A stretch of DNA of 20,653 nt. It comes from a virus. Under the pieces are notes generated by a model. That model did no database searches. It worked only from the letters and a program-made list of their open reading frames with translations, and was not told where the DNA came from. A program made the position numbers and the translations under genes. The DNA lies in the IMG/VR virus record IMGVR_UViG_3300033148_007459, positions 1 through 20,653 of that record; one strand, given 5' to 3'. Below are positions 1,287-19,129 of this stretch, piece by piece. How positions within the stretch are numbered: the first letter of the stretch is position 1; each line of letters starts with the position of its first letter.

Positions 1287-3428
1287 TTATTTTTCTTGTA
1301 ATATCAATCCATCTTCGCCTTGAGCAACTACGAAAACTGTTTCTGATTTTGGTTCAATTACTTCATCCCCAATTTCAGCATTAGATAACAAGAATTCCAA
1401 TTCAGATAAATCAGTATATATTTCTTGATCCGATTCATCATTAACCATAATGTCATTATTTAACTTGAAATCTTGCACAATATCTGAAAAATCTTCTTCA
1501 ACTTCTTCAGCATCCATTTTTTCTTTATTTGCATCAATTTTTTCTTGTTGTGTTTTTAATTCAATTTCCATTTGTTTTTCTAATTGGGTAATTTGATCAT
1601 CAGATAAATTGAGAATATCTCTCATTACAAAATCTTTAGTGAATATTATAATTTCACCATTTTCATCATCTTTAATAGTGAATTCTTTTATTTCATTTAG
1701 TAAATCCAATCTACTTCTTAATTTTGCAACTCTTTTCAATTCAGCATAATCATTATTATCAGCAAATTTAAATTTTATTGCTCTACTATATAATCCTTTC
1801 CATTCTTCTTCATTAATTATATTTTTACAAATCAATTGTTTTTTCATTAAGTCTTTAAAAGCAAATGAGAATTGTTTTCTTAATTTAACAACAAATTTAA
1901 AAAAGTTGATTTCTTCTCTTTCAACTTCCTGAGATTCACCAAATTGCATTGTTGCGCCTTCTTTATTCCGTCTTAAGCGGGGAACTCTCAGTGATCTATA
2001 TACCTTATCTAGGAAATATTCCAGTATAGGTAATCCATTGATATCCATTGATGATGCTGACAATTCTTCTATTTTCATTCCTTTTTGATCGCCTCTATGC
2101 GGAACAAAAATATCTCTTGAAAGATTTATTTTATCTTTAGTATTTTCAATTCTACCTGTTGATTGATTATATTTTGATTGAGTTGACATCTTCTTAGCAA
2201 TTTCAGCGACTTTTTGCTTCACTTTTGGTTCTGGCATATCATCAACATCAATATAGAATATTAGTTTTTCAACAGATCTTGTAATTGCATATATAACTAA
2301 TGAATTTTCAATTGCATTTAATTGATTCAATGGTTTTATGGCAAAATTTAAAAATGAAAGTGGAATTTTATTTTTACCATCCCATAAACCAGAATTTGAT
2401 TCTGAAATTTGATCTGATAACCAAACCTTTTGATCCTTTTGCCTAAAACTAGAAAAATCATTGTATGAATTGTCATCTGTTTTAACATAAACATATTTAT
2501 GTATTTCTTTAGAATATTTCTTTAGAATCCCGACTGGATCTATTGGAACAACATATTGTATTCCATCAGTTATTTTCTTATTGTCATAAACTGCTTCAAG
2601 CAACATTGTTCCTTCAATAAAAAAATTTCTAAATAATTGTTCTAAATTATTATCAAGATCCATTATTGAATATAGATATTTCCATTCATCGGATATTTTT
2701 GTTTTAGTACTATCTGGAATTTTTTTATCATCATCATTAAAATCAATGGCCATTATATCCGACATTGTATCAACAACAACAGATTCATTTGTTATTTCTT
2801 CCAATGCTTCTTGAATTTCAATATGTGACGTTGATAATCTCCGCCAAACAGGAATCATTTCACTTGCTTGATGCTGCTTGTATAATTCATATACTGTATT
2901 AGAAACGTCTATTCCCAAATCCTTAATAACATCCTTATACTCAGATGTTTGAGACATATTTTTTTGTTTTGAAGGATCGTGCTTTTGAAGAATTTCTTTT
3001 TCTAATTTTTCATTCAACATATTCTTTAAAACTTTAGTTTCAAGTGAGTTAAATTGTGGGCTATCTTCACTCAATACTGAATTATTTTTTTCTTGCTTTT
3101 CAAGTTTATTAAGCAATACATCTTTGATTATTTTTTCTTCATATAATTTCATTTGCTCATCAGTGATGTCCGTACCTTTCAAACTATTATCATTTTGAAA
3201 TAACTGAAATCTAACTTGCTCACATTTCTTAGAACAAAATTCTTCATAGCCTTTTTCAAGTGAGATAAAATCAGTTTCTTTCTTGCATAAATTACAAACA
3301 TCTTCATCATTAACTTTCAAATATTTGTCATAATATTGTTTAGCTTTAATTTTATGTTTTCTCAGATGTGAAGTCAAACCTCGATAACCCTGACATTCTT
3401 TGCTACATATTTTGCATATTATTTTCAT
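1287..3428 (-). CDS. 20: Portal protein (gp20-like) with N-terminal zinc-finger module
   Basis: The T4 gp20-type portal forms the ring at the unique capsid vertex through which DNA is packaged and ejected. Residues about 160-620 follow T4 gp20: FYIDVDDMPEPK (391-402), then STGRIENTKDKINLSRD, IFVPHRGDQKG, RVPRLRR and EIxFxKFVxxLRxxF (506-520). At 713 aa it is far longer than T4 gp20 (524). The N-terminal 70 residues carry a C2H2 finger (C5, C8, H21, H25) and a second Cys cluster (C45, C48, C65, C69) joined by KAKQYYDKYLK, the module seen in the endonuclease at 17753-19129. Residues 70-160 are a charged, helical linker, and about 90 extra C-terminal residues are acidic then beta-like. ATG 3428 has an AGG 7 nt upstream and the zinc-finger codons are in frame, so the fusion appears genuine. 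It follows the gp4-like and possible gp2-like genes and precedes a terminator. Confidence 0.92.
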   Translation of the reverse strand: MKIICKICSKECQGYRGLTSHLRKHKIKAKQYYDKYLKVNDEDVCNLCKKETDFISLEKGYEEFCSKKCEQVRFQLFQNDNSLKGTDITDEQMKLYEEKIIKDVLLNKLEKQEKNNSVLSEDSPQFNSLETKVLKNMLNEKLEKEILQKHDPSKQKNMSQTSEYKDVIKDLGIDVSNTVYELYKQHQASEMIPVWRRLSTSHIEIQEALEEITNESVVVDTMSDIMAIDFNDDDKKIPDSTKTKISDEWKYLYSIMDLDNNLEQLFRNFFIEGTMLLEAVYDNKKITDGIQYVVPIDPVGILKKYSKEIHKYVYVKTDDNSYNDFSSFRQKDQKVWLSDQISESNSGLWDGKNKIPLSFLNFAIKPLNQLNAIENSLVIYAITRSVEKLIFYIDVDDMPEPKVKQKVAEIAKKMSTQSKYNQSTGRIENTKDKINLSRDIFVPHRGDQKGMKIEELSASSMDINGLPILEYFLDKVYRSLRVPRLRRNKEGATMQFGESQEVEREEINFFKFVVKLRKQFSFAFKDLMKKQLICKNIINEEEWKGLYSRAIKFKFADNNDYAELKRVAKLRSRLDLLNEIKEFTIKDDENGEIIIFTKDFVMRDILNLSDDQITQLEKQMEIELKTQQEKIDANKEKMDAEEVEEDFSDIVQDFKLNNDIMVNDESDQEIYTDLSELEFLLSNAEIGDEVIEPKSETVFVVAQGEDGLILQEK

Positions 3429-3442
3429 GTTTTACCTATTTA

Positions 3443-4093
3443 TTAAAAATGTTGTATTTTGTGTTGTTTACTTAAATATGACCATCTTGCTCGAAGGGTT
3501 GATTGGTATCCTGAAGAAAATAAAATTGGATAATTCTTAATTGGAAATCTTCTAGGTTCTTTTATTCTATCAACTAAATATAATCTAAGTGCATTGTTTC
3601 CAAAAACTTCACTATTTAAAGCAGGATCACCTTTTAATTTTAAATAAGTCAACATAATAAATCTCTTCATTAACATTTTAAAATTTTTATTTACTTTCCA
3701 GTCCATTTCCAAATATTTGTCAACTATTAAATTGAATATTTTTTTTCTGGAATTCTTTTTCGTAATCCAGTGAAGATTTATTCCTAGCATATAATAATTG
3801 CCATTTTTCTTATATGTGCTCAAAACAATAACTAAAGGTGATTGATCATAATGATGCATTTTATCTTTAGTTTTTGCATTTGGATATTTGAAAACTAAAA
3901 CTTCTCCTGGCATCAGATCACTAACTTTTCTTAATTTGCCTCTAGAATAGCTCTTTATTTCCTGCTCCAACTTCTTTTCTTTTTTCTTTAAAGTAAGCTT
4001 ATCAACTCGTTCTTGTTCTTTAGCTACCTTTTTTTCCAAGTTTATTTTATCACGAGCCAATTGTTTTAAAGTTTTTTCTTTTTTCTTAGGCAT
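3443..4093 (-). CDS. T4-like head/tail protein, possibly gp2-like DNA end protector
   Basis: 216 aa. Residues 1-47 are a Lys/Glu-rich helix, probably coiled coil. The core PGEVLVFKYPNAKTKDK (62-78), then HHYDQSPLVIVL and YYMLGINLHWI (100-110), has the pattern of a family common in T4-like marine phages (x-FxYxAKTKDxxxYYDxxPLVxxL...LGxNLHY), which I recall as annotated DNA end protector, though I am unsure of that name. T4 gp2 caps packaged DNA ends and protects them from host RecBCD. The adjacent gene is gp4-like, and genes 2 and 4 are also neighbours in T4, which supports the idea. The start lies 2 nt after the upstream stop, so the genes are probably translated together. The C-terminus is basic and aromatic. 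A structural role is likely; the exact identity is tentative. Confidence 0.6.
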   Translation of the reverse strand: MPKKKEKTLKQLARDKINLEKKVAKEQERVDKLTLKKKEKKLEQEIKSYSRGKLRKVSDLMPGEVLVFKYPNAKTKDKMHHYDQSPLVIVLSTYKKNGNYYMLGINLHWITKKNSRKKIFNLIVDKYLEMDWKVNKNFKMLMKRFIMLTYLKLKGDPALNSEVFGNNALRLYLVDRIKEPRRFPIKNYPILFSSGYQSTLRARWSYLSKQHKIQHF

Positions 4094-4095
4094 AA

Positions 4096-4698
4096 TTATA
4101 TACTCAAATTCAAATTACAAAGTTCTTTTTCAGTTATTATTTTAAAATATATCTTTCTACCTTTTTTTCTTTCAGTAGCACAAAATTCTTTCGCTGCTTG
4201 CCATTTTGATCTATTTTGATAATATGTATATAACGCATAATTATAGGATTTTTTATTCTTATACTTTTTTGAATTTGGTTCAATTGTTTGATTTTTAGGT
4301 TTAACTTCAACAATTATTTCTTTACCACTTTTTTGCATATAATAAAAATCAGTAAAATATCTTCTTATCCTAGGTTTAACTGTTATAATTTGACCATTTG
4401 CAAATTCATATGGAAATACATATCGCATTACATAGTCTTTATCTTCAGAACTCCACTTAACAATTTCATCTTCTATATCCAACCACATGCAATATTTTAT
4501 TTCATATGAAGATCTCAATGTGACTACTTTATCATGATTACAATTTTTTTCAGGATATCGCAAACTATCATAAAAATTTTGGATTTGCTTGTAGTTCGTC
4601 TTTTTAGTTTTTCTAGGTGATGAAGTTTTATTTGTATTCTTCTTTTTTGTGCCTGTTTTAAGATATTTCTTCCTAGTAGTATTTCTTAATTTTCGCAT
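4096..4698 (-). CDS. 4: Head completion nuclease-like protein (gp4-like)
   Basis: 200 aa. A very basic N-terminal tail (about residues 1-35, Lys/Arg/Thr-rich) precedes a compact PD-(D/E)XK-type core: LRSSYEIKYCMWLD (E66), VKWSSED (81-87), RIRRYFTDFYY (D117) and IIVEVKP (E131, K133). The S-S-x-E, W-S-S-E, R-R-Y-F-x-D-F and E-V-K-P succession is characteristic of T4 gp4 (gp50/65) head-completion proteins, which act on the filled head before tail joining and resemble an endonuclease that trims or handles the packaged DNA end. A TATAAATA late box lies at 4723-4730, 25 bp before ATG 4698, and the gene heads the gp4 / possible gp2 / portal unit. All putative catalytic residues look intact. The Shine-Dalgarno is weak. 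Confidence 0.85.
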   Translation of the reverse strand: MRKLRNTTRKKYLKTGTKKKNTNKTSSPRKTKKTNYKQIQNFYDSLRYPEKNCNHDKVVTLRSSYEIKYCMWLDIEDEIVKWSSEDKDYVMRYVFPYEFANGQIITVKPRIRRYFTDFYYMQKSGKEIIVEVKPKNQTIEPNSKKYKNKKSYNYALYTYYQNRSKWQAAKEFCATERKKGRKIYFKIITEKELCNLNLSI

Positions 4699-4995: not shown

Positions 4996-5068
4996 CCCTT
5001 TATAAACAACAAAACTTTTTCTGATAGTAAATACTACTAAAGGAAAAAGTTTTGTTGTTTATGAAGGG
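4996..5068. terminator. Very long bidirectional hairpin between convergent genes
   Basis: Arms 4996-5021 and 5043-5068 pair over 26 bp with a single G-U wobble (T5001/G5063), leaving a 21-nt loop that can form a small inner TAGTA/TACTA stem. It starts 3 bp after the stop of the plus-strand gene and lies 16 bp past the stop of the minus-strand tube-family gene, so it should separate converging transcripts. There is no clean U-tract after the stem; the U-rich tracts are inside the arms. Confidence 0.8.
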
Positions 5069-5084: not shown

Positions 5085-5558
5085 TTAAGATCTAACAAAT
5101 ATCATATCATCAAATCTTGCTGTGATTGAATAGAATAAATTTTGTGAACTCTTCAAATCTAATTGCATGTCACCAACTTCTGTAATTATCATATCTTTAA
5201 ATTGAATTTTGGCAATTTGATTATTTTTTCCGCTATTTAATATTAATGTACCTTGAAATATTTTATCCTCTTGGTTCATAATTCCTATTTGTAGATTATG
5301 ACCTCTTCTCATTTCTTGATAAACTTCTTCCCAACCATTATATTCAGCATCACAGATAACTTCAAACATTAGGTCATTAAATGTTAATTCATCTGATGGA
5401 AAATTCATCTTTGCACCTGCAATTCTCTGTTCAACAACTCCATAGCTCCATCCAGGAATATTCACTGATTGAAGAAAAAATTCAAAATTCTTTAAATCAC
5501 TTGATAATACGAATTGAAATTTTGATGTTTTACTATTAGATACGCTTTTACTTGTCAT
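5085..5558 (-). CDS. Tail tube family protein (gp19/gp54-like)
   Basis: 157 aa, close to T4 gp19 (163 aa). The pattern NFEFFLQSVNIPGWSYG (24-40) followed by a short beta-hairpin, LTFNDLMFEVICDAEYNGWEEVYQEM and a C-terminal beta-rich half ending FYSITARFDDMIF resembles the T4-like tail tube / tube-initiator fold: an 'x-x-IPG' loop, an 'F-x-x-L-x-V-x-x-x-x-D' strand and an amphipathic helix E-x-Y. Such proteins stack as hexameric rings forming the channel inside the contractile sheath, or initiate the tube on the baseplate. Its start overlaps the stop of the M15 peptidase gene (TAATG), implying translational coupling and equal late expression; an AGGG Shine-Dalgarno precedes it. Whether it is the main tube protein or a gp54-like initiator cannot be decided here. 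Confidence 0.7.
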   Translation of the reverse strand: MTSKSVSNSKTSKFQFVLSSDLKNFEFFLQSVNIPGWSYGVVEQRIAGAKMNFPSDELTFNDLMFEVICDAEYNGWEEVYQEMRRGHNLQIGIMNQEDKIFQGTLILNSGKNNQIAKIQFKDMIITEVGDMQLDLKSSQNLFYSITARFDDMIFVRS

Positions 5559-15717: not shown

Positions 15718-16403
15718 TATATTGAACCTTTATATGTAAAATCTCTATCTAGTATATCAATTGCCTTGTTCTTTTTTTGTTGTTTTATAAATGTTCTATA
15801 TTCATCTACATCCAAATCATCATATGTAATTATATTATTTCTTAACTTTAATTCAGTAAGCAACAATTCAGCAATTGCAAAACCATCAACTATATCCGCA
15901 AAAGGTGATTTATCTAAGCGATTATTTTTATCAAGATCAAAACGATCTTTTTTATCATGCTTTAGAAAATATTTAACCATTAGTTCTTTTCCTTTAGCAC
16001 CACCATTTCCGGTAAAAAACATTTTAATTTCTGATGGAGTATATTTTCTTATTTTTTTACCTGTTTCATAACAACGCTGAACAATCATACCAACAAATTC
16101 ACCAATTTTAAAAACTTGGCCCTTTGCACCAAATGCATAATTCTCAAATGCAACATATTCACAATCAACAATAAATTTCATTATATTTTCTCGCATATAA
16201 ATATATTTATCGCAATCATTTCTAAAACTATTATTTTTAGTATTTGACCAAAAAATAATTTCACCTTCAGAATTTTTGTGAGCATGTTTTTTAACTGTTG
16301 TAAACGTCAAATAATATTTATTCACAATATTTAATTCAGCGTCCAATTCAAATTTTACAATTCCACTTCCATTTATGGAAGGATCTATTCCTGCGATAAT
16401 CAT
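15717..16403 (-). CDS. ruvC: RuvC-like Holliday junction resolvase
   Basis: 228 aa from ATG 16403, which has AGG 8 nt upstream; a GTG at 16412 would add three residues but is too close to that AGG. The RNase H/RuvC fold is recognised by IIAGIDPSINGSG (D7), YVAFENYAFGAKG (E87), KIGEFVGMI (99-107), IRKYTPSEIKMFFTGNGGAKGKELM (118-142) and SPFADIVDGFAIAELLL (D170, D173). These match E. coli RuvC D7, E66, D138 and D141, all present. RuvC enzymes cut four-way DNA junctions; in a T4-like phage this would do the job of endonuclease VII (gp49), resolving branched replicating DNA before packaging. It overlaps the tube-like gene by 56 bp and the tailspike gene by 1 bp, so it is expressed with tail genes. 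Confidence 0.85.
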   Translation of the reverse strand: MIIAGIDPSINGSGIVKFELDAELNIVNKYYLTFTTVKKHAHKNSEGEIIFWSNTKNNSFRNDCDKYIYMRENIMKFIVDCEYVAFENYAFGAKGQVFKIGEFVGMIVQRCYETGKKIRKYTPSEIKMFFTGNGGAKGKELMVKYFLKHDKKDRFDLDKNNRLDKSPFADIVDGFAIAELLLTELKLRNNIITYDDLDVDEYRTFIKQQKKNKAIDILDRDFTYKGSI

Positions 16404-17013
16404 CTTGTTCACCTATTTTTTTAAATACAAATATTACTTGTAAAAGTTGTATTACAACATCTTCACCTAAATTCAAACTTATTTCATTTACCGAAGTTGG
16501 AATAACACCTTCATATATAACTTTTTTATTTTTTTGTAAATTAGTGTTTAGTGGAGAAATTACAAATTCCATTCCTACATCATCAGTATATAGAGAATTT
16601 TTATCATAAGGCAATGTTAAATTCATCCACTGCTCAAAAATTGTTCTAATAATCAATGAATCAGATTCTACAAATGAAACAGTAATTTTATCATCTGCTC
16701 TTTTATAGAAATTATAATTTCTTATATTGTTTACATACTGCGTTGTAAATTCACTTTCTACAGTACTCATAGTAACTGAAAAACTATTTTGTTGTAAAAT
16801 ATTGAATATGTGATCATTCTTTTTAATCAAGTCAATATTAACATCTTCAAATTGTTTAGTTTCCAAATTCTCTAATACTTTACTGCTAATTAAATTTTCA
16901 TTTTCACCTATAATGTCAAGATGAAATATATTATTTATCAAAGGATTTTTAATATTTGAATTATTTAAAAAGTATTGTCTTGATAAAAATTCTTTTGAAG
17001 TCAATATTGCCAT
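16348..17013 (-). CDS. Tail tube-like protein (gp19 family), C-term overlaps ruvC
   Basis: 221 aa. The last third follows T4 gp19: DDKITVSFVESDSLIIRTIFEQWM (107-130) resembles the WTVTVxNDEAxxxRxxFxxW segment, and GVIPTSVNEISLNLGEDVVIQLLQVIFVFKKI (169-200) matches GLWPTNVGELQLDW...IQTFEVTLALDY. Tail-tube proteins stack in hexamers inside the sheath. The first 70 residues are more variable and unusually charged. The final 21 codons after KKI200 (GEQDDYRRN...) lie within the ruvC gene in another frame, right after an A7 tract (16416-16422); loss or gain of one A would stop the protein at or near KK. The start ATG 17013 is preceded by a late box (17036-17043) and an AGG. It could be the main tube or a tube-terminator paralogue of the 5085-5558 product. 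Confidence 0.7.
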   Translation of the reverse strand: MAILTSKEFLSRQYFLNNSNIKNPLINNIFHLDIIGENENLISSKVLENLETKQFEDVNIDLIKKNDHIFNILQQNSFSVTMSTVESEFTTQYVNNIRNYNFYKRADDKITVSFVESDSLIIRTIFEQWMNLTLPYDKNSLYTDDVGMEFVISPLNTNLQKNKKVIYEGVIPTSVNEISLNLGEDVVIQLLQVIFVFKKIGEQDDYRRNRSFHKWKWNCKI

Positions 17014-17752: not shown

Positions 17753-19129
17753 TTAAAAAATCATAAACTGAAAATTGTATCCGGCTTCTTGACATGCTTC
17801 CGCTTTTAATAAGTTCTTTTCTAAATATTTATCCATTGTCCAAATTGACTTTACCTCTATTATTAAATTTTCAGATGGAATATAAATATCCGTAAAATAT
17901 CTATGCTTTCTTCCATTTTGAATATACCAAATTTCCGGAACATATTTTCTTTTCGTAATTATTTCATTTTCTTTATAGTTACATTCAAATAATAGGTCCA
18001 AAGCTTTATTTTCATATCCTTGAATATTAATAATTTTTCCAGAAGGCAACATGTAATTTTTCCATGAATATTTATTACATTTTTCAGAAAATTCTGGAAC
18101 CTGCATAACATATTCAACATTGTATTTTTTTAAATTTGTTTTTGATCTTTTTAAATTTATATGTTCTCGTTCTTTTTTACTTTTATTTTTATAAGATTCT
18201 TTTATTTTTGATATTACTTCATTACATTTTGTAGGGTGAGATACTCCATATCTCTTAAAATAACTAACAATTTTCTTATCATTTATTAATTTAAGTTCTT
18301 CATCTGTCTTATTTTTCCACATTTCTTTTATTTTTGATGATGTTCTTAATTTTTCTTCATCTGTCTTATTTTTCCACATTTCTTTTATTTTTGATGATGT
18401 TCTTAATTTTTCTTCAGGTGTCTTATTATCATTAATATATTTTATTTTTTCTTTAAAATAGTTGGATTTTGAAATATTATCGCAATCATATATCCTATTC
18501 AATGTTTTTGCACGCTTTTCAACTATTAATTTAAGTTCTTCAGGTGTCTTATTCTTCCATGTATACTTAATCTTTTCCTTCACATAATCAATTTGACTTA
18601 CATTATCAACATTATATTCATCTTTAAAATATCGTTTTATTTTATTTTTTATATTTGGATCTTCAAATGCATTTGTTACTCCACTTTTTTGTTGCCAAAA
18701 ACTTTCAATTTTTATTGATCTTTCTTCATTTTGTGCAGCACACTTAACAGAGCAGCATATATTATAACCTCTATTACTTCCATTGAAATTTGTTTTATTA
18801 CCGCAAACAACACATGCACCATCACCATCATTCTTCAAATAATTATCGTAATATTCCTTAATTTTAATATGATGGTTTCGTCTAATATGTTGAGATAACT
18901 TAAATTTAGTATCAAAAATTCTACCACATATTCGACATTGTAAACTATTAGTTTTATTTATTATTTCTTCTTTATAAAATTTTAAATAATAGTCATGAGA
19001 TTGTATTTTGTGAATATTTCTTAAATGATCTTTAAAATTTTTAACTAATTTTCCACATATTTGGCAAATATGTTTTTTGGAATTGTTTTCTAAATCGAAT
19101 GGATTATTTAAATCTTTCTTTTGACACAT
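17753..19129 (-). CDS. Zinc-finger / PD-(D/E)XK homing-type endonuclease
   Basis: 458 aa. The N-terminus has three Cys/His clusters: C22-C25-H35-H40, C65-C68-H81-H86, and C106-C109...C125/C126-C130, the latter two linked by IKIKEYYDNYLKNDGDG. The middle (about 150-350) is a run of short repeats of the type KIKEMWKNKTDEEKLRTSS with YGVSHPT/YNVEYVM motifs, resembling NUMOD-type DNA-binding modules of homing endonucleases. The C-terminus (about 370-458) is a PD-(D/E)XK-like nuclease: GYENKALD (E373), HRYFTDIYIP (D414), IIEVKS (E425, K427). Homing endonucleases cut intron- or gene-lacking alleles so their own gene spreads. Placed directly after the terminase gene, this is probably a free-standing homing gene in the packaging/neck cluster. 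Its leader (19139-19194) may mask the AAGGA Shine-Dalgarno. A perfect 57-bp tandem duplication is at 18296-18409. Confidence 0.85.
   Translation of the reverse strand: MCQKKDLNNPFDLENNSKKHICQICGKLVKNFKDHLRNIHKIQSHDYYLKFYKEEIINKTNSLQCRICGRIFDTKFKLSQHIRRNHHIKIKEYYDNYLKNDGDGACVVCGNKTNFNGSNRGYNICCSVKCAAQNEERSIKIESFWQQKSGVTNAFEDPNIKNKIKRYFKDEYNVDNVSQIDYVKEKIKYTWKNKTPEELKLIVEKRAKTLNRIYDCDNISKSNYFKEKIKYINDNKTPEEKLRTSSKIKEMWKNKTDEEKLRTSSKIKEMWKNKTDEELKLINDKKIVSYFKRYGVSHPTKCNEVISKIKESYKNKSKKEREHINLKRSKTNLKKYNVEYVMQVPEFSEKCNKYSWKNYMLPSGKIINIQGYENKALDLLFECNYKENEIITKRKYVPEIWYIQNGRKHRYFTDIYIPSENLIIEVKSIWTMDKYLEKNLLKAEACQEAGYNFQFMIF
18296..18409. repeat. Perfect 57-bp tandem duplication inside endonuclease gene
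   Basis: Two identical adjacent 57-bp copies (18296-18352, 18353-18409) encode two exact 19-residue repeats with core KIKEMWKNKTDEE. Related but diverged repeats (KIKYTWKNKTPEE, KIKYINDNKTPEE, KIKESYKNKSKKE) flank them, so repeat number probably varies by unequal recombination. Confidence 0.9.

Follow-up and report, generated by a model that had tools for sequence, protein, structure and literature searches.

A zinc module of homing-endonuclease type at the N-terminus of a T4-like phage portal protein

The portal gene and its genomic context

The window, i.e., the whole 20.65-kb stretch of DNA analysed here, is AT-rich (27.9% GC) and represents a fragment of an uncultured T4-like phage, the record being that of a virus contig. 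Its minus strand encodes a partial large terminase, an endonuclease, neck and tail proteins, RuvC and a tail tube protein, as well as gp4-like, gp2-like and portal proteins (Table 1). The gp4 and gp2 genes immediately precede the portal gene, a recombinase-like ORF comes after it, and fibre-like genes are also present, the recombinase-like and fibre-like assignments having been made by reading alone. Two separate genes (5085-5558 and 16348-17013) match the phrog_45 tail-tube family. The tail tube and gp4 genes are separated by a non-coding gap with a 34-nt inverted repeat (4996-5068; 88% complementary, 5-nt loop), a strong hairpin that may act as a terminator or processing site. The sequence TATAAATA, of the T4 late promoter type, occurs on the minus strand at 557, 4723, 13000, 17036 and 17742, and several gene starts, among them that of gp4, have such a site 18-33 nt upstream; its overall count in the window barely exceeds chance (10 vs 6).

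Table 1. Position of the features discussed in the text (window coordinates)
Feature	Positions	Strand	Basis or remark
Portal ORF, gp20 family, 713 aa, N-terminal zinc module	1287..3428	-	Pfam, PHROG, AF2
Native gp20-like portal body, residues 126-645	1494..3053	-	Campylobacter phage portal alignment from about residue 126
Linker, residues 71-125, helical/flexible	3054..3218	-	low pLDDT
LSE, residues 119-121, candidate prohead-protease motif (L/I-X-E)	3066..3074	-	motif consensus PMC9026906
LYE, residues 95-97, second L/I-X-E motif in linker	3138..3146	-	motif only
Met93 codon, without Shine-Dalgarno	3150..3152	-	
Homing-endonuclease-type module, residues 1-70: C2H2 finger, YYDxYL helix, C4 cluster	3219..3428	-	
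Treble-clef-like C4 cluster, residues 45-69 (C45, C48, C65, C69)	3222..3296	-	weak YacG similarity
C2H2 finger, residues 1-26 (C5, C8, H21, H25)	3351..3428	-	motif reading
Shine-Dalgarno AGGT upstream of Met1	3434..3437	-	6 nt before start
gp2-like DNA end protector gene	3443..4093	-	PHROG 429 E=3e-16; 14 nt upstream of portal start
gp4-like head-completion gene	4096..4698	-	PHROG 218 E=1e-27
Endonuclease, DUF7487 C-terminus, two finger units	17753..19129	-	Pfam DUF7487 E=2e-39; phrog_3339 E=1e-15
Endonuclease unit 2, counterpart of portal module	18734..18949	-	alignment and profile
Endonuclease unit 1, finger and YYxxY only	18968..19075	-	two-sequence profile, weaker match

From about residue 126 onward, the portal ORF is a true T4 gp20-family portal. 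Portal_T4 (PF07230) matches residues 200-622 (E=5e-93) and PHROG 213 residues 141-645 (E=2e-97), and the best matches of the AF2 model are the T4 gp20 structures 6uzc, 9mkb and 3ja7, with E-values down to 1e-24. No nuclease family was matched in Pfam and PHROG profile searches, and the protein is therefore not filed as an endonuclease. A preliminary description of this DNA had ascribed the length of 713 aa to an N-terminal zinc module; the module does add about 70 residues, but the excess amounts to about 125 N-terminal residues together with a tail (residues 646-713, window 1290-1493). This tail, which falls outside the gp20 profile, is acidic, with 19 D/E vs 3 K/R.

The N-terminal module and its counterpart in the endonuclease

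The elements listed in the preliminary description are all present in the portal ORF, namely, the C2H2 finger, the segment KAKQYYDKYLK (residues 28-38) and a C4 cluster of pattern C45-x2-C48-x16-C65-S-K-K-C69, which includes CSKKC. The endonuclease of the same window displays, as had been stated, the same layout in its residues 64-130, including KIKEYYDNYLK and CSVKC. Its finger and YYxxY units are arranged in tandem (18734-19075), the C4 cluster being found in the second alone. In a local BLOSUM62 alignment, portal residues 4-70 and endonuclease residues 64-130 share 26 of 65 positions with a score of 136, to be compared with 39 +/- 6.5 for plain shuffles (z about 15; 0/1000 reach 136). When Cys and His were held fixed, the shuffles scored 43 +/- 8 and again none of 1000 reached the observed value; with a z of 11, a chance resemblance due to generic Cys/His spacing, which had been named as a refuting condition, is ruled out. 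When a profile of both modules was run over the window, three sites matched in all (3216-3428, 18734-18949 and, more weakly, 18968-19075).

Portal residues 1-100 alone match phrog_3339, annotated 'homing endonuclease' (E=8e-4). Pfam yields weak hits to zf-C2H2_4 for the finger (E=0.03) and to YacG for the C4 part (E=0.0067), while in a profile search the finger part matches C2H2 fingers of the PDB. These similarities support the assignment of residues 1-70 to a homing-endonuclease-type unit, for which a DNA-binding role is suggested by the company that such units keep with nucleases. All eight Cys/His ligands are kept in both modules, and the codons agree at 15 of the 26 identical residues, where 15.6 would be expected with random synonymous sites. 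Silent sites being saturated and all metal ligands intact, the module has been under selection at the protein level since the two modules parted, a signal that may, however, predate the fusion and stem from the lineage of the donor.

With regard to structure, the module was folded alone with AF2 from an alignment of six rows. The C2H2 finger is predicted with confidence (pLDDT 91-93), followed by a short helix at YYDKY and by a hairpin and helix bearing C45, C48, C65 and C69 (pLDDT 77-87). Fold matches in BFVD include T5orf172-type, endonuclease-like, HNH and DUF7487 proteins. Since the PDB fold matches are weak (best Z 3.0; YacG 4tma_L, Z=2.0 at residues 41-86), the C4 part can be classed only tentatively as a treble clef, from its weak similarity to YacG.

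Translation start and linker

Whether the module is made depends on the start codon. A translation start further downstream, for example at Met93, which would leave out the module, had been named as a refuting condition, and there are internal start codons, Met93 itself lying upstream of the native portal region. However, the AGGT in front of Met1 resembles the start signals of other genes of the contig, whereas Met93 has none; Met1 begins 14 nt past the stop of the gp2-like gene, and the 276 nt ahead of Met93 form an open frame with codon use matching the rest of the portal gene. As judged from these signals, translation from Met1 is favoured and the module is probably translated; a start at Met93 or later is very improbable.

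The linker connecting the module to the portal body has no known relatives. It is not a recognisable further remnant of an endonuclease (no similarity to the endonuclease, p=0.3). A duplication of the N-terminal helix (residues 92-112 vs 124-144) was considered and set aside as weak, with p=0.005 on chosen segments and no similarity at the DNA level. A target-site duplication was likewise rejected, the candidate being just a 15/16-nt direct repeat (3038-3053 and 3254-3269), near chance.

Distribution of the module and possible donors

The preliminary description had stated that no such module belongs to T4 gp20. Among the matches listed, drawn from genome contigs as well as phage and viral ones, about 135 other T4-like portals all lack it, and the next-longest N-terminal excess among 136 other portal-like ORFs is about 40 residues. 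The best of the portals listed reach 45% identity across 66 aa, or about 33% across the body; three additional portals, 40-45% identical over a conserved 66-residue stretch, are likewise devoid of the module. Searches with six exact peptides each found no close relatives. A tblastn search of portal residues 1-100 against INPHARED (2445 records with a portal match) gave nothing at E 0.01, a threshold at which diverged modules in other portals could escape. In open-access papers, we came across no phage portal with a zinc finger and no transfer of an endonuclease zinc domain into a structural protein.

The fusion is known from a single contig, and a misassembly joining the 5' end of an endonuclease gene to the portal gene has to be considered, no relative with the same fusion being at hand. 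Such a join would, however, need to preserve the frame and provide proper start signals and matching composition. Moreover, the module and the endonuclease of the window share at best 75% DNA identity over 63 nt, too little for a near copy, and hence offer no extended common repeat that could have misled the assembly. We regard an artefact as highly unlikely.

Module-bearing genes beside head genes were encountered elsewhere. In the IMG/VR contig L146, which carries T4-like head and tail genes, a module-bearing ORF with a nuclease-type C-terminus overlaps the start of the gp4 gene by 14 nt. In Stenotrophomonas phage Marzo (MZ326868.1; L152:4001-4612), an unannotated module ORF overlaps gp4 by 100 nt; it has no recognisable nuclease domain and looks like a truncated endonuclease gene. 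In Vibrio phage K362, the C4 half is encoded by an ORF located 4 nt upstream of a head-closure gene. Two viral contigs encode ERCC4-type nucleases that start with the same C2H2 and YYxxY unit (L148:4018-4938 and L150:5001-5930), directly upstream of a terminase-like gene, which they overlap. An origin of the portal module from the endonuclease of the window was not borne out: unit 2 of this endonuclease scores 142 with the L146 module and 136 with the portal module, and thus is not singled out as donor.

Origin and fate of the module

The reading that we favour, with a probability of roughly 0.7, is that the essential portal gene acquired, in frame at its 5' end, an endonuclease-type DNA-binding module, which is translated as an N-terminal domain of the portal. 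The capture proposed initially is upheld to the extent that an endonuclease-type module is joined in frame to a genuine portal and is absent from the other portals examined; the occurrence in one contig without close relative and the lack of a clear donor in the window were counted against it. A single contig is compatible alike with capture, with a relic and with a past homing insertion. The donor would have been a related endonuclease gene that stood on its own, had been inserted immediately upstream of a head gene and had lost its 3' nuclease part; if such a gene overlapped the start of the head gene, deletion alone could suffice for an in-frame fusion.

In T4, the N-terminal region of gp20 is located inside the capsid, and its N-whisker is essential and length-sensitive (PMC7136217). 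The present portal must therefore put up with, or make use of, about 125 additional residues, and an extension of this kind might do harm if it were neither cleaved nor accommodated. During head assembly, the module could reach from the portal wing into the interior of the capsid on the flexible linker of about 55 residues. It might then either be shed at LSE121, restoring a near-native N-terminus, or be kept, which would place twelve zinc domains beside the packaged DNA and the capsid. We tentatively propose that the portal has turned a selfish endonuclease module to its own use, as a domain for head assembly or as a propeptide that can be cleaved, providing twelve DNA- or partner-binding zinc domains in the prohead.

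Removal of the module, which elaborates the capture rather than competing with it, is possible: module and linker would act in prohead assembly only, targeting or anchoring core components, or doing nothing, before a gp21-type protease removes them at LSE121. The T4 prohead protease gp21 cleaves after L/I-X-E (PMC9026906). The linker contains two such motifs, LYE97 and LSE121, and the module is free of them, LSE121 lying about 5 residues before the native start as placed by the Campylobacter phage alignment; two motifs are nevertheless at chance level (1.1 expected), and the protease gene is absent from this contig. As encoded, 125 residues precede the native region, whereas T4 gp20 escapes processing and begins with a 6-residue whisker (PMC7136217, PMC5694885), a T4 trait that the family profile does not demand; cleavage of the extension would restore a short whisker. 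Long portal propeptides are removed in giant phages (PMC5694885). L/I-X-E was found to be rare at the N-termini of T4-like portals, not in the core. Over the first 60 residues of the T4-like portals L009-L145, 14 motifs were counted vs 65 expected (n=132), and 6 vs 17 in 35 dissimilar N-termini, which may reflect an avoidance of cleavage, although the sequences are not independent and the control motif [VF]xE is partly depleted too.

A module retained in the virion as a working domain, contacting DNA, capsid or core and replacing the N-whisker anchor of T4, seems rather doubtful. Its ligands are intact and its finger is confidently predicted to fold, and an anchor involving methionine and metal has been proposed for the intra-capsid N-terminal region of T4 gp20 (PMC7136217); on the other hand, DNA binding is presumed for this module type from its association with nucleases, and the module is not conserved across portals. 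We consider it equally doubtful that an endonuclease once inserted at the 5' end of the portal gene left the module behind as an inert remnant, which would be tolerated because the linker keeps it apart. The module-bearing endonuclease-type genes found directly upstream of head genes elsewhere and the absence of the module from the other portals examined would fit such a relic, but one of some age would be expected to have decayed, and here the eight ligands, the YYDxYL core and a stop-free frame with gene-like codon use are all preserved. A very recent relic would be compatible with this intact state.

Comparison with known systems

The body of the portal is similar to T4 gp20 (PF07230, PHROG 213; 6uzc, 9mkb, 3ja7) in sequence and predicted fold, from which the protein differs by its approximately 125 additional N-terminal residues, its zinc module and its acidic C-terminal tail. 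The portal of the giant phage SPN3US, gp81, likewise has a long N-terminal extension and, close to its native start, a protease motif that ends in glutamate; the available portion of that study does not mention a zinc module (PMC5694885), and cleavage of the present portal is putative. The fusion bears on the extent to which T4-like portals can accept an altered N-terminus, this end being essential and length-sensitive in T4. It also bears on the question of whether domain capture can yield portal propeptides, which have been described as a peculiarity of giant phages.

With regard to the module, phage zinc-finger homing endonucleases (phrog_3339, DUF7487 proteins) share the C2H2, YYxxY and C4 elements or parts thereof, as do proteins of Staphylococcus phages Machias and PB50 named 'endonuclease fused to N-terminal Zn finger domain'. 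In contrast to phrog_3339-type endonucleases, the portal lacks a nuclease domain and is a structural protein of the virion. Essential phage genes are already known to have homing endonuclease genes as neighbours, and the latter are known to exchange DNA-binding domains with regulators and nucleases; both the location near essential genes and swaps of zinc DNA-binding domains have been documented (PMC10448857). In the CapR/Odn swaps, zinc DNA-binding or nuclease domains associated with endonucleases were adopted by other proteins in phage-satellite conflict (PMC10448857); the CapR-type fingers follow a CxxC...CxC pattern, unlike the portal module. The recipients in those cases are regulators or nucleases (PMC10448857), whereas here the recipient is an essential structural protein, and a clear case of this kind would show selfish DNA feeding structural innovation.
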